Origin: Halobellus sp. MBLA0158
GTDB taxonomy: Archaea > Halobacteriota > Halobacteria > Halobacteriales > Haloferacaceae
Assembly: GCF_041477585.1 (NCBI RefSeq)
Contig: NZ_JBGNYA010000001.1
Coordinates: 2,852,001 to 2,916,000 of the forward strand
Direction: 5' to 3'
Length of the DNA: 64,000 bases
Shown here in pieces: positions 29,807 through 51,534 of the stretch (position 1 is the first letter of the stretch; every line of letters begins with the position of its first letter). Position numbers and translations under genes: made by a program. Under the pieces are notes generated by a model. The model was not told the origin of the DNA and ran no database searches. It saw only the letters and a list, made by a program, of their open reading frames with translations.

Positions 29807-31641
29807 TCATCCACAAATCGTTCATACCATTGTTCAAGCAATACTAGATCCCAAAGTTGGAAGCCATAATCTGCGCCGTCAAGATGAGCCTGCAGCTTAG
29901 CACTTAGTGGAGCTTTGTCAAAGGGTTCTCGATCACCAAGACGATCAAGATTTTCTCGAGCTAACTCTCTGAGATCGTTTCGGAACCATTCATTTACAGG
30001 GACCGAAAATCCTTGCTTCGATCGATGTAGTATCGAATCTGGAATTATATCTCCGAAAGCTTTCTTGAGCAGCCATTTCTTATTTCCATACCTCCACTTG
30101 TATTTGGCTGGTATCCGCGAAGCAAATTCGACGGTTTTGTGGTCAAGAAATGGGGATCGGAGTTCTAAGGAATGGGCCATACTTGCGCGATCGGCTTTTG
30201 TTAGGAGATCATTCGGCAGATACGTGTGGATATCAACTTGCATTACTTGATCCATTCGGGTCGGGCCATCTGCCTTATCAAACGCTTGGCGGAGATACAT
30301 TAACTCATCGTTCTGTGGGGGGCCTGACCAAAGTTCCAATGCTTCCTCACCGAGCATATGACAGATATATGGGGCATATCGTTCAACAGTGTCTCCGTCA
30401 GCATTTTCTAATAGAGAAGCACCACGATCAGTAAAGCCAATTCCAAGTTCGGATAGATGATTCAAAACTCTCTGACCAACTGTCCTAATCGGATCCGGTA
30501 TTTGACTCACCTGTTGAGTTAGCCAGTCGTATGTGTACCGGTCGTAACCGGCGAAGTTCTCGTCACCAGCATCTCCAGTCAGTGCTACTGTAATGTCTTC
30601 TGAAGCAACCTGTGAGACATAATACGTCGGGACTGCTGACGGATCACCGAACGGCATCTCATAGTGTTCGACAATTTCCGGGAATACCTCCATAGCATCC
30701 GGGGTAACTGTGTACTCCGTGTGTGTCGTATCGAATTTCTCGGCCACAGTCCGTGCATATTCGAGTTCGTCGTACTCGTCGAATCCGATGGAGTAAGTGT
30801 TGACCTCCGTTTCGGAGACTTCGTCCATTAGGGCAGTTACGATAGTCGAATCAATGCCGCCAGATAGGAAGACTCCCAGGGGAACGTCGGAACGCATTCG
30901 GAGACGGGTGGCCTCGCGAAGTTCGTCACGTAGTCTGTCGGCTAAGCGATCTGGCGATGCCGAGGACTGTTGCCTAAATGTCAACGACCAATATGTGTCC
31001 CGTTGCATTCCATCCTCGGTGACAATTGCGTACTCTGCAGGCTCAAGGGATCGAACCCTCTCAAAACCGGTGTGAGGTGCCGGTACGTATTGGTAAGTGA
31101 GATACGACCGGATTGCCGGAAGATCAGGTTTTGCTTCTATAGCCTCATCCTGCAGAATCGCCTTGATAGTCGATCCAAACGTGAATCCAGATTCGTCGTT
31201 GTGATAGAAGAGCGGCTTCTGTCCGAGACGATCACGGGCAAGAAAGAGGCGTTCTTTTCTCTCATCCCATATGGCAAAAGCAAACATACCCCGGAGCAAC
31301 GAAAGACATTCGATACCCATATCTTCATAGAGATGAAGCAGAACTTCGGTGTCAGTTTCGGACCGGAAGGTGTGGCCACCGAGTCGATTGCGTAATTCTC
31401 GGTAGTTATAGATTTCTCCGTTAAAAACGATATGAACGGTACTATCCTCATTTGCCATCGGCTGACTACCAGTCCGACTCAGGTCAAGGATACTAAGTCG
31501 GCGGTGGGAGAGAACGACCGGACCGTTCGCATAGATTCCTTTATCATCTGGACCGCGATGAGACATACAAGCTGCCATCGATTCTCCGAGATCATCGCTA
31601 GGAGCGCGGTTGAACGAAAACTTCCCGCTTATCCCACACAT
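29803..31641 (-). CDS. Asparagine synthetase B-like glutamine amidotransferase
   Basis: A 612-residue two-domain enzyme. MCGISGKFSF gives the Cys2 glutaminase nucleophile, with SHRRLSILDLSRTGSQPM and VFNGEIYNYRELR in the same domain. The ATP-pyrophosphatase domain has GVFLSGGIDSTIVTALM (PP-loop) and TVALTGDAGDENFAGYDRY. The C-terminus has LTKADRASMAHSLELRSPFLDHK. It could make asparagine, but coupling to a glycosyltransferase inside a glycan cassette with a UDP-sugar 6-dehydrogenase fits amidation of a uronic acid, as known for some bacterial polysaccharides. A TATA-like ATTTATAG lies about 35 bases upstream. Confidence 0.88.
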   Translation of the reverse strand: MCGISGKFSFNRAPSDDLGESMAACMSHRGPDDKGIYANGPVVLSHRRLSILDLSRTGSQPMANEDSTVHIVFNGEIYNYRELRNRLGGHTFRSETDTEVLLHLYEDMGIECLSLLRGMFAFAIWDERKERLFLARDRLGQKPLFYHNDESGFTFGSTIKAILQDEAIEAKPDLPAIRSYLTYQYVPAPHTGFERVRSLEPAEYAIVTEDGMQRDTYWSLTFRQQSSASPDRLADRLRDELREATRLRMRSDVPLGVFLSGGIDSTIVTALMDEVSETEVNTYSIGFDEYDELEYARTVAEKFDTTHTEYTVTPDAMEVFPEIVEHYEMPFGDPSAVPTYYVSQVASEDITVALTGDAGDENFAGYDRYTYDWLTQQVSQIPDPIRTVGQRVLNHLSELGIGFTDRGASLLENADGDTVERYAPYICHMLGEEALELWSGPPQNDELMYLRQAFDKADGPTRMDQVMQVDIHTYLPNDLLTKADRASMAHSLELRSPFLDHKTVEFASRIPAKYKWRYGNKKWLLKKAFGDIIPDSILHRSKQGFSVPVNEWFRNDLRELARENLDRLGDREPFDKAPLSAKLQAHLDGADYGFQLWDLVLLEQWYERFVDE

Positions 31642-31798: not shown

Positions 31799-32506
31799 TT
31801 ATTTTTGTCCCCTGAATTTACGGACTCGTTTGGAGGCTTGGAATACACCTTCTGGTGTCCCTGCGTCGTACCATTCTCCATCAAACAAATCGTAGGTAAG
31901 CGTTCCTTTGTTGAGGTAGTGTCGGTTCACATCTGTTATTTCATACTCGCCCCGATCCGATGGCTCTAAGTCACGAATCACATCAAATACGTCACTTGTA
32001 TAAAGATATAATCCAATGACCGCATAGTTTGACTCTGGAACGTCTGGTTTTTCTTGTAAGTCAGTCACTCGTCCTTCTTCAACTGAGGCCACGCCGTAGG
32101 CAGCCGGTTCTTCCACCTGCGTCAGGTAGATCTTGGCTCCTTCCCCATTGAACGACTGAACGGATTCCTGTAATTCTCCGACAAGAATATTATCTCCAAG
32201 AATTACTGCGAATTCGTCATCAACGAAGTCTTCAGCAAGTCCAACAGCGTGAGCAATACCTAGAGGTTCCGACTGAACCTTATACTGGAAATCCGCTTCG
32301 TAGTCCTCCTCAAGTAGTTCAATATACTTCCCGATGTGTTCGGCATTACTTATTATCAGGATATCATCTATTCCAGCGTCGATAAGCGTTGAAACAGGGT
32401 AATAAATCATCGGCTCATCGTATATTGGGAGCATATGCTTATTAACGACTCTCGTGACAGGTCGCAGTCGAGTTCCACGTCCCCCAGCTAGCACAACACC
32501 TTTCAT
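31799..32506 (-). CDS. rmlA: Glucose-1-phosphate thymidylyltransferase (RmlA-like, short archaeal form)
   Basis: Makes dTDP-glucose. The 235-residue protein has VVLAGGRGTRLRPVTRVVNKHMLPIYDEPMIYYPVSTLIDAGI, FAVILGDNIL, LQEKPDVPESNYAVIGLYLY and EITDVNRHYL with the trailing WYDAGTPEGVFQASKRV. These are RmlA features; the C-terminal allosteric extension of bacterial RmlA (about 290 residues) is missing, as usual in archaea. It is divergent from rmlB with only 55 bases between, so both respond to one promoter region. Confidence 0.9.
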   Translation of the reverse strand: MKGVVLAGGRGTRLRPVTRVVNKHMLPIYDEPMIYYPVSTLIDAGIDDILIISNAEHIGKYIELLEEDYEADFQYKVQSEPLGIAHAVGLAEDFVDDEFAVILGDNILVGELQESVQSFNGEGAKIYLTQVEEPAAYGVASVEEGRVTDLQEKPDVPESNYAVIGLYLYTSDVFDVIRDLEPSDRGEYEITDVNRHYLNKGTLTYDLFDGEWYDAGTPEGVFQASKRVRKFRGQK

Positions 32507-32561
32507 AAACCGTGCTTAGCCAACAGTGTTTAAAATAGTTGTCCCCAATGGAGGATACGAA
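32507..32561. promoter_or_regulatory. Shared promoter region of rmlA and rmlB
   Basis: Only 55 bases separate the two divergent starts. GTTTAAAATA (32528-32537) has a self-complementary TTTAAA core and can serve as a TATA element in both directions, about 24-34 bases from each ATG. GGAGG at 32550-32554 is the ribosome site for rmlB. Confidence 0.55.
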
Positions 32562-33506
32562 ATGCCCAATCGCGATAGCATCCTTATAACGGGCGGTGCG
32601 GGGTTCATCGGGTCGAATCTCACCCGTGCTGCCATAGAGCGTTTTGAAGAGGTATACGTGCTAGATAATCTAACGTACGCTGGGAACATACGGAATCTTC
32701 ATTCTGTTGAGGATAAGATCACCTTTATCGAAGGAGATATTCGAGAACACGAAATTGTTTCCGAGATATACGAACAGGTGGAGGTAGTTGTCAACTTGGC
32801 TGCAGAATCCCACGTAGATCGAAGTATTAAATCCGGAATTCCCTTTTTACAATCGAATGTAGAAGGTGCGTACGTTTTGATGGAGTTGCTCCAAGAACAC
32901 GATGTCGACCGCTTCATTCAGATGTCGACCGATGAGGTATACGGAAGTATCGAAGAGGGTGAATTCAGCGAGGGAGATCCGCTAGATCCGAGTTCACCAT
33001 ATTCGGCCAGTAAAGCGAGTGCAGACCTTTTCGTTAACGCGTGTTGGGAGACATATGATCTTCCGATAACGATAGTTCGACCGACGAACATCTACGGTCC
33101 GCGTCAACACCCAGAGAAACTGATTCCAAAATTCACGCTCCGTGCGCTCAGCGGAGACAGACTTCCCCTATATGGTGACGGATCAAACGTCCGTCAGTGG
33201 CTCTACGTGAAGGACTTTTGTAATGCGCTCTTACAGATAGTCGACCACGATACAGACGGGATATATAACGTCGCTGGACCGGAACGTCGAAGTAATATTG
33301 AGGTTACAAAAGCGATACTCGAACGCGTCGGTGCCTCCGAATCTCTCATCGAATTCGTTGCAGATCGTGCTGGACATGATAAACGATATGCGATTGACGA
33401 TTCGAAACTTCAGGAAGAAATAGGATTCGACCCCCAGTACGGGTTCGCAGCAGGGCTCGATGAAACAATTGAATGGTATAGAAAGCACCGAGATAGTTAT
33501 CAGTGA
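32562..33506 (+). CDS. rmlB: dTDP-glucose 4,6-dehydratase (RmlB)
   Basis: Converts dTDP-glucose to dTDP-4-keto-6-deoxyglucose. The 314-residue SDR has ILITGGAGFIGSNLTRAAIER, NLAAESHVDRSI, MSTDEVYGSIEEGEF with the Asp-Glu pair typical of 4,6-dehydratases, SPYSASKASADLFV (Tyr/Lys) and RPTNIYGPRQHPEKLIPKF. The start MPNRDSIL is supported by GGAGG 7 bases upstream. Its stop overlaps the end of the convergent glycosyltransferase gene by 7 bases. Confidence 0.93.
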   Translation: MPNRDSILITGGAGFIGSNLTRAAIERFEEVYVLDNLTYAGNIRNLHSVEDKITFIEGDIREHEIVSEIYEQVEVVVNLAAESHVDRSIKSGIPFLQSNVEGAYVLMELLQEHDVDRFIQMSTDEVYGSIEEGEFSEGDPLDPSSPYSASKASADLFVNACWETYDLPITIVRPTNIYGPRQHPEKLIPKFTLRALSGDRLPLYGDGSNVRQWLYVKDFCNALLQIVDHDTDGIYNVAGPERRSNIEVTKAILERVGASESLIEFVADRAGHDKRYAIDDSKLQEEIGFDPQYGFAAGLDETIEWYRKHRDSYQ

Positions 33507-34600
33507 GCGGAGTCGACCACGCCGCGGAACAATTGTTCGTACTGGCTAGCGACGACGTCAATACCGAAGACGTCTTCTGCAAATGCGGTGTTCTGAGAGA
33601 GCCGCTTCAGCTTTTCCTGGTTCGAAAGCACATCCTCGACTCGCGAACAGAATTCGTCGAACGGTTGTGGCGGGATCCCCGCATTTTCGCTCTCAATAAA
33701 CGAGTCAGGGTCTAAGTGGAGGGATGCCACCGGGGTGCGTTGGAGCCACGCTTGGATGAATGTATTCGAGAATCCGCTTGACTTCGAAGTATCCACGAAC
33801 AGTTTGGCCCGCCGAAACCATTCCGTATCCTCTCCGGAAGGCACACTTCCTTCGAACACGATTCCATCGACACTGTTGGTCATCTCTTCCAATTCTGCCC
33901 GGTACTCATCGCTTCCGCCGCCAATAAGATGAAACGTCCAGTCCGTGTCTGCAACCCGATCTGCGAGTTCAATAAATCGCTCCGGATTCTTCCAAGGGAC
34001 CAGTCTTGCCATCCAAATAACCTTATTTTCTTTCTCCGCGAACTGTGGTACCGAGTCCGGAACTGGATGTCCGAGATAGATAGTGGTCGAATCGAGCCCG
34101 AAGGCATCCGCCAACTCTGATTGCATATAGTCGGCGAGGGCGACGCGGGCGTCCGCATTCCGGAGAGCCCGGAAGTACTGGAGTCGACGCCACGCGCTTT
34201 TCTCACTCCAGTGGCCGCGATCATAGTCCTGTTCGTGGGCCAATCCGATGGTAAATCCACTACCCCGTTCTCTGGCTACGAAGTTCGTGATACCAGTGAG
34301 AGGAGACGGCGGCGTGTTGTGGTAGATGTCGGCATCGATCTTTCGAAGCGTACGCAAGAAGTCGGCGTGAGACCACGCGAAGTTGATTACGCTGTTTCCC
34401 GCGTCGGGTTTCCATCCGTAGGTATGAACCTCAACGCCATCAATAACCTCTGTATCGGGTTGGTCATCAGAGAACCGTCTACTCGTCATATGGACATCGT
34501 GTCCTCTGGACACGAGTTCTCGGCCAACTTCGAAGCACAGACGCTCAGCACCGCCGATACGATACGCCGGGGTCTTATCCGTTGCGAAACAGATTTTCAT
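33500..34600 (-). CDS. GT4 family glycosyltransferase
   Basis: A 366-residue GT-B enzyme. KICFATDKTPAYRIGGAERLCFEVGRELVSRGHDV is the N-terminal Rossmann part; TTIYLGHPVPD, KVIWMARLVPWKNPERFIELADRV, IGGGSDEYRAELEE and a donor loop SKSSGFSNTFIQAWLQRTPVASL follow. The loop lacks the usual Glu-x7-Glu wording (EG...E), so donor binding may differ from typical GT4 enzymes. It lies between rmlB (convergent) and a decayed insertion sequence. Confidence 0.82.
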   Translation of the reverse strand: MKICFATDKTPAYRIGGAERLCFEVGRELVSRGHDVHMTSRRFSDDQPDTEVIDGVEVHTYGWKPDAGNSVINFAWSHADFLRTLRKIDADIYHNTPPSPLTGITNFVARERGSGFTIGLAHEQDYDRGHWSEKSAWRRLQYFRALRNADARVALADYMQSELADAFGLDSTTIYLGHPVPDSVPQFAEKENKVIWMARLVPWKNPERFIELADRVADTDWTFHLIGGGSDEYRAELEEMTNSVDGIVFEGSVPSGEDTEWFRRAKLFVDTSKSSGFSNTFIQAWLQRTPVASLHLDPDSFIESENAGIPPQPFDEFCSRVEDVLSNQEKLKRLSQNTAFAEDVFGIDVVASQYEQLFRGVVDSAH

Positions 34601-34664: not shown

Positions 34665-35357
34665 GGTACTGTTCAGATAAGGTCGAAAAGTGAGGCGGTC
34701 GTAGTTCGTTGGTGCCTGTGCCAGAACCCAACGCCTCATCGGAGGTAGCGGCTTTCCAGAGTTAGATTTTGTGGAGCGAGAGGCGACACCCGAGTCGGCG
34801 ATGGATCTGGGTATCCAACTGCATTTGGCGGGACTATCGCTATCGGATACCGTCTCTATCCTTGCAAGCCTGGGTGTCGACCGATGTCGTTCGACCGTTC
34901 ACAACTGGATTCAGAAGGCTAATCTACAGCCCGCCGAAGGGCAGAATCCGAATTACGTTGCAGTAGACGAGACGGTAATTCGAGTGAATGACCAGTGTCC
35001 TGGCTGTTTGCAGCGGTCGATCCCGATACGAACCGCCTGCTACACGTGCGACTATTCCCGATCAGGACCCAAGCGTTGACCAAGATGTTCCTTGCAGAAC
35101 TCCGCGAGAAACATCTCGTTTCCGACGCGATCTTCCTGGTCGGTGGCGCACCCTGGCTGCAGGCGGCCTGCCATCGTCACTCGCTCCGATTCCAATACGT
35201 CACCCACGGGAATCGGAACACCATCGAATGGGTCTTCAAAGAACTCAAACGCCGAACCGAAGCCTTCGCAAACCACTTCAGACGCCCGTCCTGAAACCGC
35301 AGAAACGTGGCTCCAAGCGTTCGCTGTCTGCTTCAATCAGCTAATCTGAACAATTCC
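34665..35357 (+). mobile_element. Decayed IS6-family insertion sequence
   Basis: A 693-bp remnant with 17-base imperfect inverted ends: left GGTACTGTTCAGATAAG (34665-34681) and complement of right GGAATTGTTCAGATTAG (35341-35357). Size, end sequence and the encoded protein match haloarchaeal IS6-type elements. The flanking 8 bases (AGTGGAAG and TATAGGGT) do not match, so no target duplication survives. Confidence 0.82.
34718..35349 (+). pseudogene. IS6-family transposase, frameshifted
   Basis: The protein can be followed only by changing frame. It begins MPEPNASSEVAAFQS (GTG 34718), shifts near 34762 to ELDFVEREATPESAMDLGIQLHL and DETVIRVNDQ, shifts again near 34990 to SWLFAAVDPDTNRLLHVRLF and HGNRNTIEWVFKELKRR, and shifts a third time near 35290 to ETAETWLQAFAVCFNQLI. 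The second catalytic Asp (normally VFLVDGA) is Gly here (FLVGGAP). The element therefore cannot supply its own transposase. Confidence 0.88.
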
Positions 35358-35420: not shown

Positions 35421-36626
35421 ATGAGTGAGGATGGATATCGTATTCATTACGCCAAGTCGACATACGGACAGGAGGAACAGGAAGCTGTAAACGAAGTGTT
35501 GAGTCATCCAGAACGACTCGTGAAGGGCCCCTACACTGAGAAGTTCGAGTCCCAAATCGCTTCCCTGTTCGGCAAGGACCACGGCATAATGGTGAACTCC
35601 GGGTCTTCGGCCAACCTACTGGCCGCAGAGTTGATCGACGCGGACCCGGGTGCCGAGGTTATCACTCCTATCGTCACCTTCTCAACGACGATAGCCCCCC
35701 TCGTCCAGAAAGGGTTCGTGCCGGTATTCACCGACATCGGTGTCGGCGATTATCAACTGAATATCGATCAGGTCGAGCAGGCGATCACCGAAGAAACCGT
35801 AGCGATCCTTGTTCCATCACTCGTTGGGAACGTTCCCAACTACCATCGACTTCGGGATATAGCCGTGGAGAACGATCTCCTCCTCATCGAAGATTCCGCT
35901 GATACGTTGGGAGCCACCATCGATGATGAGCCTACTGGGGCATATACAGATATTACGACCACTAGTTTCTACGCGTCACACGTCATCACGTCGTTCGGAT
36001 CAGGAGGTATGGTATCAGTTGACGACGATGCGTGGAAACGACGGCTAATGAAGCTCCGCGGATGGGGGCGGAAATCCGCCGCCAACGAGGTTGATGACAT
36101 CGACGAACGGCTAGTAACCGAACTTGATGGAGTCCAGTATGACTCAAAGTTCGTCTTCGACGAAATCGGATACAATTTTCTCCCAATCGAAGCGATGGCT
36201 GCGTTCGGCATTGAACAAGTCAAGAAACTTCCGGAGTTTAAAAAGATACGAAGACGGAACTTCGAAGCGATGTTCGAATTGTATAGTCGTTATGACGACT
36301 GGTTCGTCCTTCCGAAGGAACGGAACGATGTGGATACCACGTGGCTCGCGTTCCCGGTGACCGTGCGTGAGGACGCTCCTTTCGAACGGAAAGAGTTAGT
36401 GAAGCATCTGGAAAACAACAGAATACAGACCCGTTCTCTCTGGACCGGCAACATTCTCAAGCATCCCGGATTCAAGCAGATTAACGCCCGGCTTCCATTT
36501 GAAGAGTACCCCAAGGCCGATACCGTGATGCGGAACTCGTTTGTTATAGGAACACACCAATCAATTGACCATTCCGATCTGGAGTACATTCGAAAAACCG
36601 TTACTGAATTCCTACGTCAGTACTGA
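35421..36626 (+). CDS. ColD/RfbH-like PLP sugar 3-dehydrase (DegT/DnrJ/EryC1/StrS family), Lys replaced by His187
   Basis: A 401-residue fold-type I PLP protein. VNSGSSANLLAAEL and LLIEDSADTLGA (Asp158 to the PLP nitrogen) are normal for the family. Where aminotransferases have the Schiff-base Lys, this protein reads TSFYASHVITSFGSGG with His187. That change is the hallmark of ColD and of CDP-sugar E1 dehydrases, which remove the 3-OH of a 4-keto-6-deoxy sugar instead of adding an amine. IGYNFLPIEAMAAFGIEQVKKL agrees with RfbH/ColD. The next gene, an SDR reductase, overlaps it by one base and is its likely partner. Confidence 0.85.
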   Translation: MSEDGYRIHYAKSTYGQEEQEAVNEVLSHPERLVKGPYTEKFESQIASLFGKDHGIMVNSGSSANLLAAELIDADPGAEVITPIVTFSTTIAPLVQKGFVPVFTDIGVGDYQLNIDQVEQAITEETVAILVPSLVGNVPNYHRLRDIAVENDLLLIEDSADTLGATIDDEPTGAYTDITTTSFYASHVITSFGSGGMVSVDDDAWKRRLMKLRGWGRKSAANEVDDIDERLVTELDGVQYDSKFVFDEIGYNFLPIEAMAAFGIEQVKKLPEFKKIRRRNFEAMFELYSRYDDWFVLPKERNDVDTTWLAFPVTVREDAPFERKELVKHLENNRIQTRSLWTGNILKHPGFKQINARLPFEEYPKADTVMRNSFVIGTHQSIDHSDLEYIRKTVTEFLRQY

Positions 36627-37510
36627 TGCGAATACTCGTCACCGGTGGTGCTGGATTCATTGGCCACGAGCTTGTTCGCCGGTTAGTGGTAAACGGTCAT
36701 CATATTGCCGTGACCGTTCACACTCACAAACCGACCGTTGAAGGTGTGGAAACGTACGAAATTGACGTTCGTGATACTCGGAAAACTCGTATAGTCGTTA
36801 CTGAATTCAATCCAGACGTGATCGTTCACGCCGCGGCTATGAGCGACGCAGATGTGTGTGAACGGTCCCCGGACGAGGCCCACGAGGTGAACGTGGGTGG
36901 CACGAAAAATGTCATCGCCGCCAACGACGGTATCGATGCACATATCATATTTTTGTCCAGCTCATTTGTCTTCTCGGGTGAAAAAGAATTCTGCGAAGAA
37001 ACTGGGAATCGCTCACCAATCAACGTGTATGGAGAGACGAAAGTCGCTGCCGAAGATATTGTAAATGATTCTATATATTCTAGTACCATTATCCGGACAG
37101 ATCAGCCGTACGGCTGGCCAGAACCTTGGCAGGAGTCGGATATGGTTGCATGGACAGTAGACCAATTGAAGCAACCTGGAACGGTGGAGGTTTTTAAAGA
37201 ATGGTGGAACAATCCCATATACCTCCCAGACTTGGTGGAGTCGATCCGTGTGCTCATCGAAGAGTGCCGTGAAGGAATTTTCCACGCGGTCGGACCAGAT
37301 TTCATCAATCGGTTCCAATGGGCAGTCGAAATCGCACGGGTGTTCGGTTACGATCAGGACCGAATCGTCCCCATTTCGACGGCAGAGGCGGATCTCCCAG
37401 CAGTCCGACCCAACGTCAGGTTGTCGCCAGATAAACTCGAACGATGCATCGAAAGCAAAATCAGACCAGTTCGAGACGGAGTCAAGCGAATGCGCGAACT
37501 GACTGTATGA
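36626..37510 (+). CDS. RmlD-like SDR, dTDP-4-keto-sugar reductase or epimerase
   Basis: A 294-residue SDR. MRILVTGGAGFIGHELVRRL binds NAD(P); VIVHAAAMSDADVCERSPDEAHEVNVGGTKN is the RmlD-type signature, FLSSSFVFSGEKE holds the Ser/Thr and VYGETKVAAEDIV the Tyr-Lys pair. IIRTDQPYGW takes the place of the usual substrate loop. It starts in the stop codon of the ColD-like gene (TGATG). By analogy to ColC it may reduce the 4-keto-3,6-dideoxy product; RmlD-type reduction is the alternative. No RmlC epimerase gene is in the window. Confidence 0.82.
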   Translation: MRILVTGGAGFIGHELVRRLVVNGHHIAVTVHTHKPTVEGVETYEIDVRDTRKTRIVVTEFNPDVIVHAAAMSDADVCERSPDEAHEVNVGGTKNVIAANDGIDAHIIFLSSSFVFSGEKEFCEETGNRSPINVYGETKVAAEDIVNDSIYSSTIIRTDQPYGWPEPWQESDMVAWTVDQLKQPGTVEVFKEWWNNPIYLPDLVESIRVLIEECREGIFHAVGPDFINRFQWAVEIARVFGYDQDRIVPISTAEADLPAVRPNVRLSPDKLERCIESKIRPVRDGVKRMRELTV

Positions 37511-37794
37511 TCGATTAGTCGCGTCACAAAGTGGCCTAGAGTTTGTCTCTGGTGCTCTCCACAGAGAGTTCACAGCTCATTGCTGTTTTGGTCAATCGTT
37601 GGAGCAGTCTGTCGAGGACCGATTGGTAGTACCCTGGATCAATATATTCGTGCGATCCACAACGCTAATTGTGAAATCTATCGGAGCAAGTCTCTTTCTA
37701 ATTCGTTAAATCTCTTGGTGGTGCGGTATATGTCGGATTGTATTTTCCAAGCGAAAAGATTAGAATAATCCCCCGTCTACCAAGTGATAGTTCT
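37511..37794. other. Intergenic stretch without a recognisable gene
   Basis: 284 bases of mixed composition. No frame gives a credible protein. CTCTGGTGCTCTCCACAGAG (37554-37573) could form a short imperfect hairpin. The promoter for the phosphodiesterase-like gene is probably within the AT-rich last 80 bases. Confidence 0.4.
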
Positions 37795-39357
37795 ATGTCA
37801 GTCCTCATTCTGGGTCTCGATGGCGCTACTTGGCGAAACCTGCGTCCGTGGATCAGAGAAGGTGAACTCCCTAACCTCGAACGACTTGCAGAGCGGGGAC
37901 ACACCGGAACGCTCCAGACGACGATCCCTTGCACAACTATCCCGGCAATCCCTGCACTCCTTACTGGACGTGATCCTGTCGGCCTTGAACTGTTCTCATT
38001 CACTCAGCCCGATGGAGCTGTTATCGACGCCTCCGACATCGAATTCCCGATGATCTGGGACGCCATAGGCGAGCAACATCGCTCGCTCGTGGCAAACCTA
38101 CGATCGACCTATCCACCCTACAAGCTCGAGGGAACGTTGGTGTCAGGAGATCTGTTTTTACCCGCCGAAGCTACCGACTACGTCTACCCCCCCTCAAGAC
38201 AGAACGAATTTGCGGATTTCCACCGGACTGAGGATATTCAGCGATTCGACGAGATTGCAAAGAATCCTGAAGACAACCGTGAAGAACTGCTCAAACTAGC
38301 CGAGAGTCAGGTATCCCGAAAGTGGGAGCATTTCAAACGTCTCTGGCGCGAGGAAGAGTACGACTTCGGATTGTTCTGGATTGGCAAGACTGACTCCATA
38401 CAGCATTACTTCTGGCACGATCAAGACACAATTCTCGAACACTACCGGTTCGTTGATAAGATCGTGGGTGAGTTCCTTGGCGATCTCGAGGCAACTAACC
38501 GGATTCTACTCTCTGACCACGGATTTGGTCAGGTACCCACCCGTCGGTTCCACGTCAATACTTGGCTCCAATGCGAAGGGTTACTGTCCGTTCGAGGCGG
38601 ACAACTTGGTCGTATATGCTACAGTGTCGGGCAGGAAGCGCTGACACGCTATGTCCCGAAATCCGTTATTCGTTCAATATACAACAGAGTTACTGGAGGA
38701 ACATCTCCCGAAGAAGTGGATAAAAAAGACCAGTTATTACTGTCTGACTTCGAAGGCATTCCCGGTATCGACTTTGCGGCGAGTGATGCATTTCTTTCTT
38801 TCCCGTGGGGAATTTCGGCCCCTGATGCGGATAAAAAGACTATTTCTGAAATAATACACTCGCTCAACGCGCTCCGTGACGAGGAGGGCGACCAAGTGGT
38901 GCAAGGCGCTTGGACGCGTGAAGAGATATACTCCGGAGATCGAATCAAAGAAGTTCCCGAGATCGTCTTTCTAACGACCGACAAATACCGAGCAGTTCCG
39001 CAACTTTCCCGCTCACTCTACACCAAGCGCTCTGCGCGTCGTAAAATCGAATCACAGCCGGTCACTGGCGAGCACAACGCTATGCGTGATGGGATACTAA
39101 TTTTAGATGGCGAGGGATTTGCGGATGTTGATGAACCAGTTCTCGACGTAACGGAATTCGCCCCTACACTCGTTCATCTTCTGGGCAACTCCGTTCCTTC
39201 TTCAATGAGTGGGACAGTTCGTGAAGATCTACTATCTGTAGACAGATCTGTTGAGCGCATTGAGTGGGAACGTGTCGAAAGGACGGGTGACAGATCTGAC
39301 GACAGCGAGGAGGAGATCAAGAATCGATTGGCGAATCTAGGATATATTGACGAATGA
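37795..39357 (+). CDS. Alkaline phosphatase superfamily protein (type I phosphodiesterase/nucleotide pyrophosphatase-like)
   Basis: A 520-residue metal-dependent hydrolase or transferase without signal peptide. SVLILGLDGATWRNLRPW provides the first Asp ligand, TTIPCTTIPAIPALLTGRDP the Thr/Ser nucleophile region, IGKTDSIQHYFWHDQD the second Asp/His pair, LLSDHGFGQV the Asp-His pair, and TGEHNAMRDGILIL the last His. All ligands of the fold appear present. In a glycan cluster it may hydrolyse or transfer a phospho-group of a nucleotide sugar or lipid intermediate, but the substrate is unknown. MSVLILGL at 37795 is chosen as start because the metal site normally lies right at the N-terminus. Confidence 0.8.
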   Translation: MSVLILGLDGATWRNLRPWIREGELPNLERLAERGHTGTLQTTIPCTTIPAIPALLTGRDPVGLELFSFTQPDGAVIDASDIEFPMIWDAIGEQHRSLVANLRSTYPPYKLEGTLVSGDLFLPAEATDYVYPPSRQNEFADFHRTEDIQRFDEIAKNPEDNREELLKLAESQVSRKWEHFKRLWREEEYDFGLFWIGKTDSIQHYFWHDQDTILEHYRFVDKIVGEFLGDLEATNRILLSDHGFGQVPTRRFHVNTWLQCEGLLSVRGGQLGRICYSVGQEALTRYVPKSVIRSIYNRVTGGTSPEEVDKKDQLLLSDFEGIPGIDFAASDAFLSFPWGISAPDADKKTISEIIHSLNALRDEEGDQVVQGAWTREEIYSGDRIKEVPEIVFLTTDKYRAVPQLSRSLYTKRSARRKIESQPVTGEHNAMRDGILILDGEGFADVDEPVLDVTEFAPTLVHLLGNSVPSSMSGTVREDLLSVDRSVERIEWERVERTGDRSDDSEEEIKNRLANLGYIDE

Positions 39358-40648: not shown

Positions 40649-41587
40649 TTAGCTATCCCGCTGATGCCACTGTAGAGTTCGTTCGAGTCCTTCTTCGAGA
40701 GAGACCCTCGAACTGAACCCTAACTCCTCTGCAGCGTTCGTAACCGCGGCCACACTTCTATCAACGTCTCCGCTTCGTCGGGAATCGAACTCTCGTTCTA
40801 ACGACCGATCGGTCACTGACTCAACTGCGTCCGCGAGTTCAGAAATGCTCGTCTCCGTTCCCGTACCGACGTTATAAGCCACTCTTTCGGGTAAGTCCAC
40901 AGTCGCTGCGCGAATATTTGCCCTTACTACATCCTCGACAAATATGAAGTCCCTTGTTTGTTCCCCGGTACCGTGTATGATCAAAGACTGACCGTTAGTC
41001 GCTCGATCAAGGAATATAGAGATGACTCCAGAATATGGACTATCATTTCGTTGACGTGGTCCGTACACATTGAAATACCGGAGGCAGATCGTCTCTAGAT
41101 CGTGTAATTCTCGATATACTTGGCAATAATATTCCCCTGATAGCTTTCCAGCCGCATATGGTGATTCGGGGGCTTGACGATCAATTTCCCGCTGAGGGAA
41201 ACGCTCCGGAGAGCCGTACACAGACGAGGACGATGCTGTCACGACCCGTTCGACGTCTGCATTCTTGGCGGCTTCAAGAACACGAATTAGGCCGATGATG
41301 TTTTCCTTTGCGTCGTACTCTGGATTGTCAACGGACTGGGTTATACTTACGTTCGCTGCTTCGTGGAACACAATGTCGGTGTCGGCGAAGTCCGAGGCTG
41401 AGATAGACCCTACATCCCGATGCACGAAATCGACGTCTTCCGGAATGTTTGCTTCGTAGCCAGACGAGAGGTTGTCAAAGACTGTTACGTGGTTTCGATC
41501 GCTAGCTACTTCGGCGATATGTGAACCAATGAATCCGGCTCCACCGGTGATAGCAATCGTCTGTCCCGAGAGTAGGCGCTCACTCAT
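40649..41587 (-). CDS. UDP-glucose 4-epimerase-like SDR
   Basis: A 312-residue extended SDR. TIAITGGAGFIGSHIAEVA is the NAD site, VFHEAANVSITQSVDNPEYDAKENIIG the family's second motif, TASSSSVYGSPERFP and SPYAAGKLSGEYYC the Ser-Tyr-Lys triad, and LRYFNVYGPRQ plus TRDFIFVEDVVRA the substrate part. These are features of UDP-hexose (or UDP-hexuronate) 4-epimerases. The start MSERLLSG lies 8 bases inside the 3' end of the 6-dehydrogenase gene, so both act in one pathway, plausibly making and epimerising a UDP-uronic acid. Confidence 0.87.
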   Translation of the reverse strand: MSERLLSGQTIAITGGAGFIGSHIAEVASDRNHVTVFDNLSSGYEANIPEDVDFVHRDVGSISASDFADTDIVFHEAANVSITQSVDNPEYDAKENIIGLIRVLEAAKNADVERVVTASSSSVYGSPERFPQREIDRQAPESPYAAGKLSGEYYCQVYRELHDLETICLRYFNVYGPRQRNDSPYSGVISIFLDRATNGQSLIIHGTGEQTRDFIFVEDVVRANIRAATVDLPERVAYNVGTGTETSISELADAVESVTDRSLEREFDSRRSGDVDRSVAAVTNAAEELGFSSRVSLEEGLERTLQWHQRDS

Positions 41588-42950: not shown

Positions 42951-43240
42951 AAGTGGAGTATAAAAACTTCCCGAGATAGTGCTTTCGATATAGTGTGGCT
43001 TCAGATTTTCGCGCCTGAGTGGTGATCGAACCACCCCGATACACTCAATCCTGCTTGATTTTTCGGCTAGGTGCAGTCCGAGTGTAGAGACAATCTTTGA
43101 CCACATTCAGAACATCTATCATAATCTGGACGAAGCACACAAGATGAATCAACGTGGACGCGAAATATCGAAGCGAACACGTGGGACGACTTTTCGAAGC
43201 AAGTTAAATACATCAGGTAACGATACTAGAAGGGAAGACT

Positions 43241-44107
43241 ATGACGTTTGACTTCGCCATACGAGACGACGATCCAAATTACTTCACCGATCCAAACGAA
43301 TTAAAGCGTGCGTACGCAGCTCTCCCAGATTCGATTCCGATCTCCTTTGCGGTCGTCCCGTTTCACGGGTGTACGAAAACACCGGCAATTCCTGAGGACA
43401 GATGGGAAGGAGACAAGGAATTTCCAATTGACGCGAACGAGGAACTCATAGCATATCTCCGGGAGGAACTCGAAAGCGGATCGGCCTCTGTGATGCTCCA
43501 CGGATACAATCACGTGAAGTATGCAGATGGACCAGAGTTTGTCGCGGGCGATAATCTGTATAATCGAATCCAGAAAGGGCGTGAGTACCTAGAAAATGTG
43601 TTTAATATCGATATCGAAATCTTTGTACCACCAAATAACTCGTTCTCGCGTGCCGGACTCAAAGCAGTCAAAGATGAGAGCTTACGTACCTTCTATTATC
43701 CAACACCTCTGAACCGACCAAAGACTCCAGAAGTACTGACTACCTTTGGTCAAGATTTGGTGTTCAAATATCGACACAGGAGTGGGGGGCTTTTCGAGTT
43801 CGTCTCTGCAGCCGATAGTTTCTGGCGGCAAGAGAACCGGTCCGTTTTTATGCCGGTTCAACCGTGGACGTATACATTGCAAGGTGAACCAGAGCTCACA
43901 TGTGTTAGTATGACGCGTACTGATTCGATCAAACGGATCAAGCGCCAGATGGAGATTGCTGATTACTACGATGCTAAGTTCTGTCTCGCAATTCACTATC
44001 ACGCGTTCCGGTCGGCCACGTTTCGGAGTTCGTTTTATGAATTAATCAACTACGCACGGTCGGAACTGGATCCACGATTCGTACGGGCGGAAGAACTATT
44101 TGAGTAG
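43241..44107 (+). CDS. DUF2334-like / polysaccharide deacetylase-fold protein
   Basis: A 288-residue protein with CE4-like features. FAIRDDDPNYFTDPNELKRAY carries the catalytic Asp cluster, SVMLHGYNHVKYADGPEF the metal His-x-x-x-His, and EIFVPPNNSFSRAGLKAV the third motif. AIHYHAF near the C-terminus gives another His. It may deacetylate an N-acetyl sugar of the lipid-linked glycan. TTAAATAC about 31-38 bases upstream can be the promoter. Its end overlaps the convergent flippase gene by 12 bases. Confidence 0.75.
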   Translation: MTFDFAIRDDDPNYFTDPNELKRAYAALPDSIPISFAVVPFHGCTKTPAIPEDRWEGDKEFPIDANEELIAYLREELESGSASVMLHGYNHVKYADGPEFVAGDNLYNRIQKGREYLENVFNIDIEIFVPPNNSFSRAGLKAVKDESLRTFYYPTPLNRPKTPEVLTTFGQDLVFKYRHRSGGLFEFVSAADSFWRQENRSVFMPVQPWTYTLQGEPELTCVSMTRTDSIKRIKRQMEIADYYDAKFCLAIHYHAFRSATFRSSFYELINYARSELDPRFVRAEELFE

Positions 44108-45532
44108 ATCGCTGACGTAGAGTTCTTTCAGAAGATCAAACACCTTGCTTCGAACTCGGGAAGAAAAAGACAATAACACAGTGAAATATACGATAACTCC
44201 GATTCCAACGGAAATGAGAACGTAATAATACGGGTACGCTGAGATCATCGATTCGACACTCGTAACGACGAGCCCCATAATTCCGGCCGCAATCCCCTGA
44301 TATCCGAGTTCGCGATACGGTACCGAAGCCCCAATCACGTGTCGTACAGCGTAAAAAGCGTACCCGAGCGATATGAGCATAGAAATCATTGTGGCGATAG
44401 CCGCGCCGATCCACCCGAACGTAACTACTAGGGTTGCGTTAGCAATAAGATTGCTAGAAATGAATAGCGCGTTTGAGCGGAACGCAAGATCAGGACGGTC
44501 CAATGCACTAAGTCCATTCTGTAATTGCCCCTCATATGACGAAAATATCGCAAAAATAGAAAGTAAAGCGAGAATAAGGCCTCCTTTTGTAAACTCTGAA
44601 CCGTAGAAATGAAGTAGATCTGGGGCGATCAGGATCGCACCTACGGCTCCTGGAATGGCAACGATACCCGCATATATGAGCGATTGCTCCAACAGGCTTC
44701 GAACCTCATTATCCCGGTTTTTTGTAGAGAGCTCACTCATAGTCGGGAACAACGCACTGCTGATCGATTGGCTTGCAAGGGCAAGGACAGTAGCAATATT
44801 CCAACTTACTTCGTAAATACCGATCAAATCAGGGGCCACAAAAAATCCTAATACGATCGTATCTGTCCATGCTGATGTTCGCGTCTTCAACGCCCCAAGC
44901 CACGAATAACGTGCGAATTCAAGCAGACGCCTGAAGTGTTCAATTTTAGGACGTGCGGGTTGATATTTTAATGAGAGTAAAGCCACCCCCCCCACGATAG
45001 CTAATGTAAACCCCGCCGCATACCCAACGAGGAGACCGAGTAAACCGAATCCAAGAGATATTAACACGATTTGAAATGTCGTGCGGATGGCTTGGGAACT
45101 CAAATCAAGAAGAGATGCTGTCGCAACCCGGTGCTGCCCTCGAAGTCCGGATCCTATCAAATTAAAAATAGTCTTAACAACCAGTATAGAAATGAGTATC
45201 AGTCCTACGTCAGCACCGATGTACTCGTTCAAGTAGGGGTGAATTACGAAGAGAAAACCCACGAGGAGTAAAAGTATGGATAACTGCAGAATAACACCTG
45301 CAGAAAAGAATTCATCCGGTGATTCACGTTCACTAATACGTTTGCGTATAGCTGAACTAACTCCTAACTGCCCAATGAACTCCAACCAGCTTAACACGGC
45401 GACAGCCAAAAAATAAATTCCGAGTGTCGAAGAGCCGAGTTCCCGTGCAAAGATGATCGTGCCAATGAACCCAATAGTAGTAACGAAGAGTTTGGTGGCG
45501 AACTGTACCAGAGATGTCGTTGACGGTTTCAC
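44096..45532 (-). CDS. Oligosaccharide flippase, Wzx/AglR type
   Basis: A 478-residue membrane protein with about 12-14 helices, belonging to the polysaccharide-transport/MOP group. The N-terminus TSLVQFATKLFVTTIGFIGTIIFARELGSSTLGIYFLA is typical of Wzx proteins. It likely moves lipid-linked glycan from the inner to the outer face so that AglB can use it, as proposed for Haloferax AglR. It is lower in GC than neighbours outside the cassette. Substrate range unknown. Confidence 0.85.
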   Translation of the reverse strand: MKPSTTSLVQFATKLFVTTIGFIGTIIFARELGSSTLGIYFLAVAVLSWLEFIGQLGVSSAIRKRISERESPDEFFSAGVILQLSILLLLVGFLFVIHPYLNEYIGADVGLILISILVVKTIFNLIGSGLRGQHRVATASLLDLSSQAIRTTFQIVLISLGFGLLGLLVGYAAGFTLAIVGGVALLSLKYQPARPKIEHFRRLLEFARYSWLGALKTRTSAWTDTIVLGFFVAPDLIGIYEVSWNIATVLALASQSISSALFPTMSELSTKNRDNEVRSLLEQSLIYAGIVAIPGAVGAILIAPDLLHFYGSEFTKGGLILALLSIFAIFSSYEGQLQNGLSALDRPDLAFRSNALFISSNLIANATLVVTFGWIGAAIATMISMLISLGYAFYAVRHVIGASVPYRELGYQGIAAGIMGLVVTSVESMISAYPYYYVLISVGIGVIVYFTVLLSFSSRVRSKVFDLLKELYVSDLLK

Positions 45533-47294: not shown

Positions 47295-48278
47295 ATGCAG
47301 ATTCTTGTCACGGGCGGAGCGGGTTTCATCGGCTCGAATCTCGCCGAACGTCTACTCAGCGAAGGCCACCACGTCGTCGTCCTCGACAATCTTGATCCGT
47401 ACTACGATCTCGGAATCAAGGAACACAACCTCAGCGCCTGTAGTAAGGCGAGCAGCAACCGCTTCGAGTTCGTCGAAGGCTCGACTACGGACGAGGAACT
47501 CGTCGAAGACGTCGTCGCGACCCATGACATCGACGTCATCTTCCAGGAGGCGTCAAAAGCAGGTGTACGAACCAGCGTGGAACAGCCGAAGGACTATAAT
47601 GAGAGTAATATCAACGGCATCGTGAATGTCCTCGAAGCCGCTGCAGATCAGGACGTCAAGCGCGTCGTGAACGCCTCTTCCTCCTCAGTCTATGGCGTCC
47701 CTGAGTACCTCCCCTACGACGAGGACCACCCGAACTACCCCAAGAGCCCGTATGCCGTCACGAAGCTCGCAGCCGAACACTACTGCAACGTCTACGACGA
47801 TCTCCGCGGTGTCCCCACGGTGAACCTCCGGTACTTCACCGTTTACGGACCGCGGATGCGTCCGAATATGGCCATCTCGAACTTCGTCTCTCGCTGTCTC
47901 AACGACGAACCGCCGATCATCTACGGCGACGGCGAACAGACCCGGGACTTTACCTACATCGACGACGTCGTTGAGGCGAACCTCGTGCTCCTGGAGACGG
48001 ACGCCGCGGACGGCGAGACGATGAATATCGGCTCGAATGACAACATCTCCATCAGAGAGCTCGCAGAGTACGTTGTCGACGAGACGGGTGCCGACGTCGA
48101 CATTATTCACGATGAGGCGAAGGACGCAGACGCCAGGCACACCCACGCGGACGTCTCGAAGGCCGAAGAACTCATCGACTACGAACCGAGTACCGACATC
48201 CGCGAGGGCGTCTCGAGGTTCATTGACTGGTACGAGGCGAACCGCGAGTGGTACGAACCGCTCGTGCGTAACTCGTGA
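47295..48278 (+). CDS. NAD-dependent sugar epimerase (UDP-glucuronate 4-epimerase-like)
   Basis: A 327-residue extended SDR with GC content and codon use back to the host type. MQILVTGGAGFIGSNLAERLL, LDNLDPYYDLGIKEHNL (wording common in UDP-glucuronate 4-epimerases), FQEASKAGVRTSVEQPKDYNESNI, NASSSSVYGVPEYLP, SPYAVTKLAAEHYC and LRYFTVYGPRMRPNMAI follow in order. It sits 64 bases before aglB on the same strand and belongs to the conserved right core of the locus. It would convert UDP-GlcA to UDP-GalA; related hexoses are possible. Confidence 0.87.
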   Translation: MQILVTGGAGFIGSNLAERLLSEGHHVVVLDNLDPYYDLGIKEHNLSACSKASSNRFEFVEGSTTDEELVEDVVATHDIDVIFQEASKAGVRTSVEQPKDYNESNINGIVNVLEAAADQDVKRVVNASSSSVYGVPEYLPYDEDHPNYPKSPYAVTKLAAEHYCNVYDDLRGVPTVNLRYFTVYGPRMRPNMAISNFVSRCLNDEPPIIYGDGEQTRDFTYIDDVVEANLVLLETDAADGETMNIGSNDNISIRELAEYVVDETGADVDIIHDEAKDADARHTHADVSKAEELIDYEPSTDIREGVSRFIDWYEANREWYEPLVRNS

Positions 48279-48342
48279 GAGCTACCGCGCTTGGCCTCTT
48301 AACAAAAGGCTTATTCGCGCTTTCCGAATCATTCCGCCCATA

Positions 48343-51300
48343 ATGAGTTCGCGTAGTGAAACTGACGACAGAGGAGGTCAATCCGTCCTCAACATCGTAG
48401 AGGACTGGTATCAGATGCCCGCCCTCCTTCTCGTGGTAGTCGTAATGTTCGCCTGGCGGATGCAGTCGTACTCCAACTTCATCCGCAATGGCGAGGTTTA
48501 CTTCTCCGGCAACGACGCGTGGTATCACTTCCGCGAAGTTGTGTATGCCGCCAAACACTGGCCATTCACGATCCCGTTCGACCCCTGGACGTACTTCCCC
48601 TACGGAACGTTCGTCGGTCAGTTCGGGACATTCTACGACCAAGTCGTCGCTACGGCCGCACTAATTGTCGGACTCGGCTCACCTAGCCAAGCGCTCATCG
48701 CGAAGATGCTCCTCGTTGCACCCGCAGTAGCAGGAGCACTCGCAGCAGTCCCAGTCTACTTCCTCGGCAAGCGTCTCTCCGGTCGGATCGCCGGTCTCTT
48801 CGGCGCGATCGTCCTGATGCTCCTCCCAGGTACGTTCCTCGGCCGAACCCTCGTCGGTACTGCCGACCACAACGCGGTCGAGCCGCTGATGATGGCGCTC
48901 GGTGTCTTCGGCTTAGTTATAGCTCTCCAAAAGGCGGAGACGGCGATGCCGGTCTGGGAAGTGGTCCGTGAGGAACTCCTCGAAAACCAGGAAATCGGTA
49001 CACTCAGACAACCCTTGAAGTGGAGCCTCCTTGCTGGCTTCTTCGTCGGACTCTACATCTGGACGTGGCCGCCGGGCGTCATCCTCGTCGGGATCGTCGG
49101 CGTGTTCACTCTTGTCAAAATCCCCAGCGACGTGATCAATGACCGTACACCCGAACCGACAGCGTTCGTCATTGCGACGAGTATGCTCGTCGTAACCGTG
49201 ATGTCGGTCCTCATCTTCGAACAGTTCGGTTTCAGTACAACGATACCGACCCTCCTTCAGCCCGCCGCCGCGCTAAGCGTCGCAGTAGCCGCCATATCTC
49301 TCTCTTGGGCGGCACGCCTCTGGGAGAGCACTGATCTCGACAAGTCACTCTACCCGACGGCAGTTGGCGGCTCCGTCGTCGCTGGTCTCGTCATCCTCGC
49401 AGTGCTTCCTTTCGGTCTACTCGATCTCATCATCGGGAATCTCCTCCGCATCGTCGGCTTCTCGGCTGGAGCATCAGCACGGACCATCGGCGAGGCCCAG
49501 CCCTTCATTTCCCAGTCCACACTCCAGCGCTACGGCGTCGAAGCCGCCGGTCGAATCACAATCGAATACGGTCTCACCTTCTTCACCGGTCTTATCGCCG
49601 CCGTCTGGCTCCACGCTCGCCCGCTCATCGAGGAGGGAACCCAACGAACATACGGCTACATCGCAGGCTCGCTCGCCATCATCGCGCTCATCTTCCTCGC
49701 GCCGTTCATCCTCGGCGGCATCGAGAGCATCACCGGCATCGACGAACAGGTCGCCGGTCTCCTCATCGTCTCGGCGCTCATCATCGGCGCGACCTTCTTA
49801 GCCGACTACGACGCCGACAAGCTGTTCCTGATCGTCTGGGCGGTGTTCATCACCTCGATGGCGTTCACCCAAGTGCGGTTCAACTACTACCTCGCGATCG
49901 TCGTCGCAGTATTCAACGCCTACCTCTTCGGCGAGATCCTCAATTGGCTCGATCTTCGGAAGTCCGTGAGCCAAGTCGTCGACGACATCGACGGCTACCA
50001 AGTCCTCGCAGTAGTCGCCTCTATCCTGCTGATTCTCGGTCCAGCGCTCACCATCCCGATCACTGTCGGCAACGTCCAAGCGTCGCCGGCCTGGCAATCG
50101 AATGAGAACGGCCCCGGCGCGGTAACCGTCTGGGACGATTCCCTCGAATGGATGCAAGGCAACACTCCCGAAGAGGGGAATCTCGGCGGCGCCGGAAACG
50201 CCGACCAGATGGAGTACTACGGGACCTACGAACGAACCGACGACTTCCAGTACCCCGACGGCGCCTACGGCGTGATGTCGTGGTGGGACTACGGCCACTG
50301 GATCACCGTCCAAGGCGAACGCATCCCCAACGCGAACCCATTCCAGGAAGGCGCCACGACAGCCGCGAACTTCCTTCTCGCACCCAACGAGACCCAGTCA
50401 CAGAGCGTCCTCGAAAACCTTGGCTCCGAAAACGAGGAGACCCGGTACGTGATGGTCGACTGGCAGATGGCGACTCCGGGCTCGAAGTTCGGCGCACCGA
50501 CGGTCTTCTACGACGCCCAAGAGAACGTCTCCCGCTCGGACTTCCTCCGAACGCTCTACCGCTTCAACGACGAAAACCAGGGGCAGTTCGCCGGCACGAC
50601 CACGCTCCGGACACAGCGCTTCTACAACAGCACGATGACGAAGCTGTACTACTACCACGGGAGCGCGCGCCAGCCCTCGCCGGTCGTGATCGACTGGGAA
50701 CCACGACAAGTCCAGACCGGAAGCGGTGAAGCGGTCACCGTCCCCTCGAATCCGCAGGGCGAGACGTTCGTCCGGACCTTCGACAATATGAGCGCCGCGC
50801 GCGAGTACGTGGCGAACGACCCGACCTCGCAGCTCGGCGGCGTGGGCTCGTTCCCCGCAGAGCGCGTGGAGGCGCTCGAACACTACCGCCTGGTCCACGT
50901 GAGCAACACCTCCGCGCGCAATTCGATTCTCCGGACGACCTACCAGGGCGCGCAGGTCGCTGGTGTCAACCCCCAGGTGACGGTTCCGAGTAACCCGGCG
51001 TGGATCAAGACCTTCGAGCGGGTGCCCGGCGCGACAGTCCAGGGTAGCGGAGCGCCGCCGAACACCAACGTGACGGCGCAGACCGAGCTCCGGATCCCCA
51101 ACACGAACGCGACGTTCACCTACACCCAGCGCGCGGAGACGAACGCCGACGGGGAGTTCACGATGACGCTGCCGTACTCGACCGCCGGCTACGACGAGTA
51201 CGGCCCGGAGAACGGCTACACGAACGTCAGCGTGCGGGCGACGGGCCCGTACACGCTCTCAACGTCGCCGACCTTCCAGAACGGCTCGATCGTATCCTAT

Positions 51301-51534
51301 CAGTCGAACCTCACGGTCTCGGAGGGCGACGTCAACGGTGACGGGGACGGAACCGTGAGCGTCGAACTCGAACGGACGGAACAGGAGTTCACGATCGGCG
51401 GTGGTTCCGGCTCCGACTCTGAGTCGGGCGATGAGTCCACATCCGACGGGTCGACGTCGGACGGATCTACTTCCGATACGAACACGCAGTCGCTCCGTTC
51501 GTCGGCGATCGCAGCCGACGCACGGGCGGCCTGA
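48343..51534 (+). CDS. aglB: Archaeal oligosaccharyltransferase AglB
   Basis: Transfers the lipid-linked glycan to Asn in N-x-S/T sequons of S-layer and other surface proteins. The 1063-residue protein has about 13 membrane helices in the N-terminal half, with GNDAWYHFREVVYAAKHWP (Asp of the first outside loop) and TLVGTADHNAVEPLMMALG (DHxxxE-type loop). The outside domain begins with the signature MSWWDYGHWITVQGERIPNANPF (WWDYG). The C-terminus has beta-rich domains and a Ser/Thr/Asp/Gly-rich repeat tail. MSSRSETDD at 48343 is the first start giving the usual short N-terminus. It marks the right end of the glycan locus. Confidence 0.96.
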   Translation: MSSRSETDDRGGQSVLNIVEDWYQMPALLLVVVVMFAWRMQSYSNFIRNGEVYFSGNDAWYHFREVVYAAKHWPFTIPFDPWTYFPYGTFVGQFGTFYDQVVATAALIVGLGSPSQALIAKMLLVAPAVAGALAAVPVYFLGKRLSGRIAGLFGAIVLMLLPGTFLGRTLVGTADHNAVEPLMMALGVFGLVIALQKAETAMPVWEVVREELLENQEIGTLRQPLKWSLLAGFFVGLYIWTWPPGVILVGIVGVFTLVKIPSDVINDRTPEPTAFVIATSMLVVTVMSVLIFEQFGFSTTIPTLLQPAAALSVAVAAISLSWAARLWESTDLDKSLYPTAVGGSVVAGLVILAVLPFGLLDLIIGNLLRIVGFSAGASARTIGEAQPFISQSTLQRYGVEAAGRITIEYGLTFFTGLIAAVWLHARPLIEEGTQRTYGYIAGSLAIIALIFLAPFILGGIESITGIDEQVAGLLIVSALIIGATFLADYDADKLFLIVWAVFITSMAFTQVRFNYYLAIVVAVFNAYLFGEILNWLDLRKSVSQVVDDIDGYQVLAVVASILLILGPALTIPITVGNVQASPAWQSNENGPGAVTVWDDSLEWMQGNTPEEGNLGGAGNADQMEYYGTYERTDDFQYPDGAYGVMSWWDYGHWITVQGERIPNANPFQEGATTAANFLLAPNETQSQSVLENLGSENEETRYVMVDWQMATPGSKFGAPTVFYDAQENVSRSDFLRTLYRFNDENQGQFAGTTTLRTQRFYNSTMTKLYYYHGSARQPSPVVIDWEPRQVQTGSGEAVTVPSNPQGETFVRTFDNMSAAREYVANDPTSQLGGVGSFPAERVEALEHYRLVHVSNTSARNSILRTTYQGAQVAGVNPQVTVPSNPAWIKTFERVPGATVQGSGAPPNTNVTAQTELRIPNTNATFTYTQRAETNADGEFTMTLPYSTAGYDEYGPENGYTNVSVRATGPYTLSTSPTFQNGSIVSYQSNLTVSEGDVNGDGDGTVSVELERTEQEFTIGGGSGSDSESGDESTSDGSTSDGSTSDTNTQSLRSSAIAADARAA

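Follow-up and report, generated by a model that had tools for sequence, protein, structure and literature searches.

Does a haloarchaeal DegT-family protein that carries a histidine in place of the PLP-binding lysine act as a sugar 3-dehydratase, and if so, on which nucleotide sugar and by which chemistry? The question is raised by an open reading frame of Halobellus sp. MBLA0158 located in a 64,000-nucleotide stretch of DNA, referred to as the window, next to genes for nucleotide sugar and glycan synthesis (Table). The frame is intact, starts with ATG and contains no internal stop, and Pfam family PF01041 (DegT/DnrJ/EryC1/StrS) covers the full length of its product at 233 bits.

An earlier note on this DNA had stated that the protein retains the PLP aspartate of the family and reads YASHVIT where aminotransferases have the Schiff-base lysine. 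Both residues were confirmed by alignment as Asp158 (LIEDSAD) and His187, and a lysine at the Schiff-base position was ruled out by every alignment made. In the comparison with ColD, RfbH, and aminotransferases that the note had proposed, His187 occupies the column of the aminotransferase PLP lysine, opposite His188 of ColD, the lysine of five haloarchaeal DegT aminotransferase-type proteins, and His220 of E1, the residue changed to lysine in PDB entry 3bb8 (H220K). As the lysine of this E1 variant aligns there, His187 is located in the catalytic column, which holds His in 24 of 24 His-type rows and Lys in 5 of 5 Lys-type rows. Ten columns (62, 81, 89, 137, 187, 241, 308, 338, 343, and 344) separated the two types in this alignment of 24 His-type and five haloarchaeal Lys-type sequences, a list that is indicative and uncalibrated as a signature because the Lys-type set is small. 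The Halobellus protein has the dehydratase residue at all ten, and since nine columns besides His187 agree, the histidine is no stray substitution. All other members of the clade described below, four haloarchaeal and eight bacterial, have it as well, and it is thus conserved rather than a product of chance or of a sequencing error. His187 and the nine further columns argue for the proposal that the Lys-to-His change marks a 3-dehydratase.

A phmmer search of the PDB with the protein gave E1 from Yersinia (3bcx, 1.2e-61) and ColD from Escherichia coli (1e-55) as best matches, both ahead of all Lys-type aminotransferases. The structure predicted by AlphaFold2 from a 25-row alignment had a pLDDT of 87.5 and a pTM of 0.89; many of the rows were cyanophage RfbH-like proteins, which may bias the model somewhat toward E1. 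In VIA-align, E1 was the top fold match of the model (Z 47.9, rmsd 1.9 Å, 361 residues), followed by ColD (Z 44.8) and, at about 44, the closest Lys-type enzymes. Together with the Pfam match, the model and its E1 score assign the protein to the DegT/aspartate aminotransferase fold. E1/RfbH (AscC), the CDP-4-keto-6-deoxyglucose 3-dehydrase, shares with it this fold, the catalytic histidine at the lysine position, and the FxTT, WGR, and TR..GN motifs at 33% sequence identity. The NCBIfam RfbH model NF011936 gave 322.4 bits, below its cut-off of 423, whereas clear RfbH members reach 665 to 712 bits. ColD (GDP-4-keto-6-deoxymannose 3-dehydratase, PDB 2gms/3b8x) shares the catalytic histidine and the lack of an Fe-S cluster at 31% identity, but has SHH, HGW, and WSTT where the Halobellus protein has SHV, WGR, and FxTT; the latter two motifs agree with the split in the protein tree.

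In that tree, five halobacterial and eight bacterial proteins formed the clade of the Halobellus protein (support 100/100), with E1/RfbH as the nearest group (98/95 in the best tree). Grouping the clade with ColD cost 9.8 log-likelihood units and remained acceptable in the AU test (p 0.13); branching on the E1/RfbH side is favoured by the sequences, not settled. The label ColD-like given in the earlier note therefore applies to the missing Fe-S cysteines, a trait shared with ColD, but not to sequence, fold, and tree, in all of which E1 is ahead. In addition, the true haloarchaeal ColD-like enzymes form a separate His-type clade (FFFSHHISTIEGG) present in six halobacterial genomes, with 33 to 34% identity to the Halobellus protein and with the ColD motifs HHI and HGW. 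Their loci contain a GDP-mannose 4,6-dehydratase over the cut-off in four cases and a GDP-fucose-synthase-like gene in a fifth, which fits a GDP-colitose-type route. Plain orthology of the Halobellus protein to ColD is disfavoured by tree, motifs, and gene neighbours, the AU result notwithstanding.

The note had also stressed the occurrence of such an enzyme in an archaeon. The protein is indeed haloarchaeal, but this is not new per se and not restricted to a single archaeon: members of the clade were found in bacteria as well as in five halobacterial genomes, and RfbH of the Fe-S type with intact cysteines is widespread in methanogen-side archaea (L083, L085, L087, L090, L096, L098, and others), where its sequences hint at 3,6-dideoxyhexoses as well. 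The clade members from Embleya and Rhodococcus (L030, L031) are not part of a recognisable sugar-nucleotide operon, and some of their otherwise conserved residues differ, for example Leu in place of Asn65. Viral sequences searched with the clade alignment yielded no relative. RfbH-like His-type 3-dehydratases were seen in cyanophages and in many uncultivated viral contigs (L034, L105-L184), and the annotated phage RN05-S has an RfbH-like gene among glycosyltransferases.

The four-cysteine [2Fe-2S] site that follows the WGR motif in E1/RfbH is absent from the Halobellus protein, in which the corresponding columns read Ser219, Ala221, Glu223, and Ile227. The cysteines of this site were missing from 13 of 13 clade members. 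With no cysteine anywhere in the protein, its identity as an Fe-S-type E1 is excluded. E1, ColD, and SpnQ have in common that the sugar forms a Schiff base with PMP, that a histidine removes a proton, and that the C3 hydroxyl is lost (PMC8987622). In ColD, which has no Fe-S cluster, the adduct is hydrolysed and PMP is restored with glutamate, whereas E1 and SpnQ rely on electron transfer by Fe-S (PMC8987622). As a cysteine-ligated cluster is impossible in the Halobellus protein, the glutamate-recycled route of the ColD type appears the likeliest; we infer it from the missing Fe-S site alone, and the E1-type WGR, retained where ColD has HGW, counts against it.

Table. Features of the glycan locus in the window.
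Feature	Coordinates	Strand	Remarks
RmlA-like glucose-1-phosphate nucleotidylyltransferase, short form	31799..32506	-	235 aa; TIGR01207 233 bits (cut-off 361)
dTDP-glucose 4,6-dehydratase (RmlB)	32526..33506	+	TDEVYG motif; TIGR01181 380 bits (cut-off 365)
GT4 glycosyltransferase of the same gene group	33500..34600	-	Pfam
DegT-family His-type NDP-4-keto-6-deoxyhexose 3-dehydratase (predicted)	35421..36626	+	401 aa; no Cys
RmlD-like 4-keto reductase	36626..37510	+	294 aa; TIGR01214 163 bits (cut-off 224); PF04321 172.8 bits
Wzx-like polysaccharide flippase of the island	44096..45532	-	PF01943, PF13440
AglB oligosaccharyltransferase	48037..51534	+	PF02516, PF22627, PF18079

The neighbours of E1/RfbH are RfbF and RfbG, those of the Halobellus enzyme RmlA and RmlB. 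The start of the RmlD-like gene overlaps the stop codon of the dehydratase gene by 1 nt (TGATG), and a gene of this type lies directly downstream of the dehydratase in 4 of the 5 haloarchaeal clade genomes, the locus in G288 having no adjacent one. RmlB is the only gene of its kind found in the genome and scored only 83 with the CDP-glucose dehydratase model; the RmlA-like protein is 71% identical to that of a dehydratase-adjoining gene in G069. At the haloarchaeal loci of the clade, RmlB over the cut-off was found in three genomes and RmlA-like genes in four. Directly upstream of the dehydratase, G072 and G262 encode an RmlC that passes the cut-off, and neither genome showed an RmlB above the search threshold; in G072, the SDR next to rmlA has TCSVYG instead of the TDExYG motif and was therefore not counted as a 4,6-dehydratase. 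The Halobellus neighbourhood contains the RmlB-type 4,6-dehydratase instead of a GDP-mannose 4,6-dehydratase. These neighbours point to a dTDP rather than a GDP sugar, and dTDP-4-keto-6-deoxyglucose is the likely substrate; nucleotide and reductase stereochemistry are uncertain because the RmlA- and RmlD-like genes score below the NCBIfam cut-offs. A precedent for a His-type enzyme with a dTDP sugar is SpnQ, the dTDP-4-keto-2,6-dideoxyglucose 3-dehydratase (PMC8987622), which differs in binding a [2Fe-2S] cluster and using a 2-deoxy substrate; the alignment contained the actinobacterial RfbH-type protein L036, not SpnQ itself. On a Chitinophagales contig, the gene order is rfbF-like, rfbG (over the cut-off), rmlC-like, and dehydratase, and on alphaproteobacterial plasmids (L027, L029, L032) it is rfbF, rfbG, clade dehydratase, methyltransferase (no NCBIfam match), and SDR reductase. 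As these bacterial members adjoin CDP-glucose genes, the clade is not bound to dTDP: it is associated with NDP-4-keto-6-deoxy sugars derived from glucose, the nucleotide being either dTDP or CDP.

The combination of RmlA, RmlB, and RmlD-like genes in a glycosylation locus resembles the Agl11-14 dTDP-rhamnose pathway of Haloferax volcanii (PMC4022621). Unlike the latter, the Halobellus genome has a 3-dehydratase and gave no match to RmlC (PF00908), for which the Haloferax volcanii control was positive, and a 3-deoxygenated product would be expected. An ordinary RmlABCD pathway to dTDP-rhamnose was rejected for want of RmlC. This genome has no RmlC and only one sugar-type DegT protein and one strong RmlD-like gene, so that the route to rhamnose is not seen in full; the dehydratase fits into this gap.

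The assignment of the gene to a haloarchaeal N-glycan locus in the earlier note held, as the dehydratase lies in a glycan island carrying aglB, the sole AglB-core match in the genome. The distance from the dehydratase to the AglB core is about 13.5 kb here and about 9 to 12 kb in G069, G072, and G262; aglB is thus about 9 to 14 kb away in 4 of the 5 haloarchaeal clade genomes; in G288, separate contigs carry aglB and the dehydratase. This proximity is suggestive, not proof, of entry of the sugar into the N-glycan. Taken together, we consider it likely that the protein is a PMP-dependent NDP-4-keto-6-deoxyglucose 3-dehydratase, probably specific for dTDP, that supplies a 3,6-dideoxyhexose to an AglB-dependent N-glycan. 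The dehydratase reading is based on homology, residues, fold prediction, gene neighbourhood, and the absence of a recognisable RmlC; we infer activity, nucleotide, stereochemistry, and glycan of the pathway. Points against it are that G072 and G262, which have RmlC, showed no RmlB above the threshold and that G288 has neither an adjacent RmlD-like gene nor aglB on the contig of the dehydratase. The RmlA-like enzyme and RmlB would form dTDP-4-keto-6-deoxy-D-glucose, whose C4 carbonyl would condense with PMP; His187 would take the proton from C4' of PMP, with expulsion of the 3-hydroxyl group. The 3,4-hexoseen adduct would then be hydrolysed as in ColD to PLP, ammonia, and dTDP-4-keto-3,6-dideoxyhexose, with PMP regenerated from PLP by glutamate. 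Reduction at C4 by the product of the overlapping RmlD-like gene would complete the sugar, probably a dTDP-3,6-dideoxyhexose, for use in the AglB-dependent glycan. Reduction of a 4-keto-3,6-dideoxy sugar without C5 epimerisation leads to the D-series (paratose or abequose), whereas C5 epimerisation by RmlC followed by rhamnose-type reduction gives L-ascarylose, i.e. 3-deoxy-L-rhamnose. As this genome has no RmlC, a D-series sugar of the paratose or abequose type is favoured as a first guess, an unrecognised epimerase being possible; the rmlC-bearing relatives would make L-ascarylose, provided that their RmlD retains the rhamnose stereochemistry.

Three other readings were weighed. The same 3-dehydratase might follow the E1 route, with no Fe-S cluster of its own and with electrons from an unlinked redox partner for reduction of the hexoseen adduct. 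The grouping with E1/RfbH in tree and fold and the common WGR motif are in line with this; however, the cluster cysteines are missing throughout the clade, and the annotated genes of the island include none for a ferredoxin-reductase-like protein, which makes this route improbable. A Lys-less C4 aminotransferase, in which the amino group of PMP is transferred to the 4-keto sugar and restored by glutamate, would instead yield a 4-amino-4,6-dideoxyhexose. The His-type relative SpnQ does transaminate when no reductase is supplied, an activity that ColD and E1 did not show under identical conditions (PMC8987622). In favour of transamination, the Lys-type enzymes also reach fold scores close to that of ColD. 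Against it, the protein has the dehydratase residues at 10 of 10 separating columns, and the neighbouring 4-keto reductase would have no function if the product were a 4-amino sugar, so that we give this reading little credence.

As to the substrate, the enzyme could act on a sugar with GDP or UDP that is formed elsewhere, for example in a colitose-type pathway, given that ColD is the other Fe-S-free class and that the RmlA-like enzyme of the locus is a short form scoring below its cut-off. This is unlikely, since no gmd family scored over the cut-off among the island SDRs scanned, the gmd-adjoining haloarchaeal enzymes belong to the separate HHI/HGW clade, and RmlB accompanies the present clade in three genomes. 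The dTDP-specific 3-dehydratase with glutamate recycling remains the preferred reading.

Archaeal rml-aglB clusters were known before and had been read as rhamnose loci (PMC4022621), and methanogens have Fe-S-type RfbH; the clade studied here is a small uncharacterised branch. With a slight lean in favour, we propose from the sequences that it represents a third class of sugar 3-dehydratases, related to E1/RfbH, free of Fe-S, and operating with glutamate alone, which in haloarchaea would convert dTDP-4-keto-6-deoxyglucose on the way to an N-glycan 3,6-dideoxyhexose, which would be of the paratose or abequose type or, in genomes with RmlC, 3-deoxy-L-rhamnose. If so, enzymes on the E1 side of the family could do without the Fe-S cluster, and a natural Fe-S-free E1 relative would be a tool for studying how electron-transfer and glutamate-recycled C3 deoxygenation diverged. 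A rare 3,6-dideoxy sugar would then be predicted on an archaeal cell surface, in line with the 3,6-dideoxyhexose proposed in the note, and join the sugars expected in archaeal N-glycans. Neither a characterised Fe-S-free E1 relative nor a 3,6-dideoxyhexose in archaea was found in the open-access papers searched, where absence proves nothing. Rhamnose should not be the default reading of rml genes beside aglB, as in this case the cluster has a 3-dehydratase and the genome no RmlC.

The island, with its glycosyltransferases, sugar-nucleotide enzymes, and flippase next to aglB, extends from about 23300 to 47000 of the window and has a GC content of 45 to 57% per gene versus 68 to 70% in the outer window, a contrast that makes horizontal acquisition likely. 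An IS1595-type transposase (PF12762, 24593-25477) is located at its edge. Just upstream of the dehydratase (34771-35349), overlapping short frames have translations with the look of a broken transposase; a Pfam search with two of them gave no match. Downstream of the RmlD-like gene, a PF01663 phosphodiesterase/phosphatase-like protein without NCBIfam match is encoded (37738-39357). The island further contains an AsnB-like amidotransferase (29803-31641) and a nucleotide-sugar dehydrogenase (41580-43106), the products of which could together form an amidated uronic acid.
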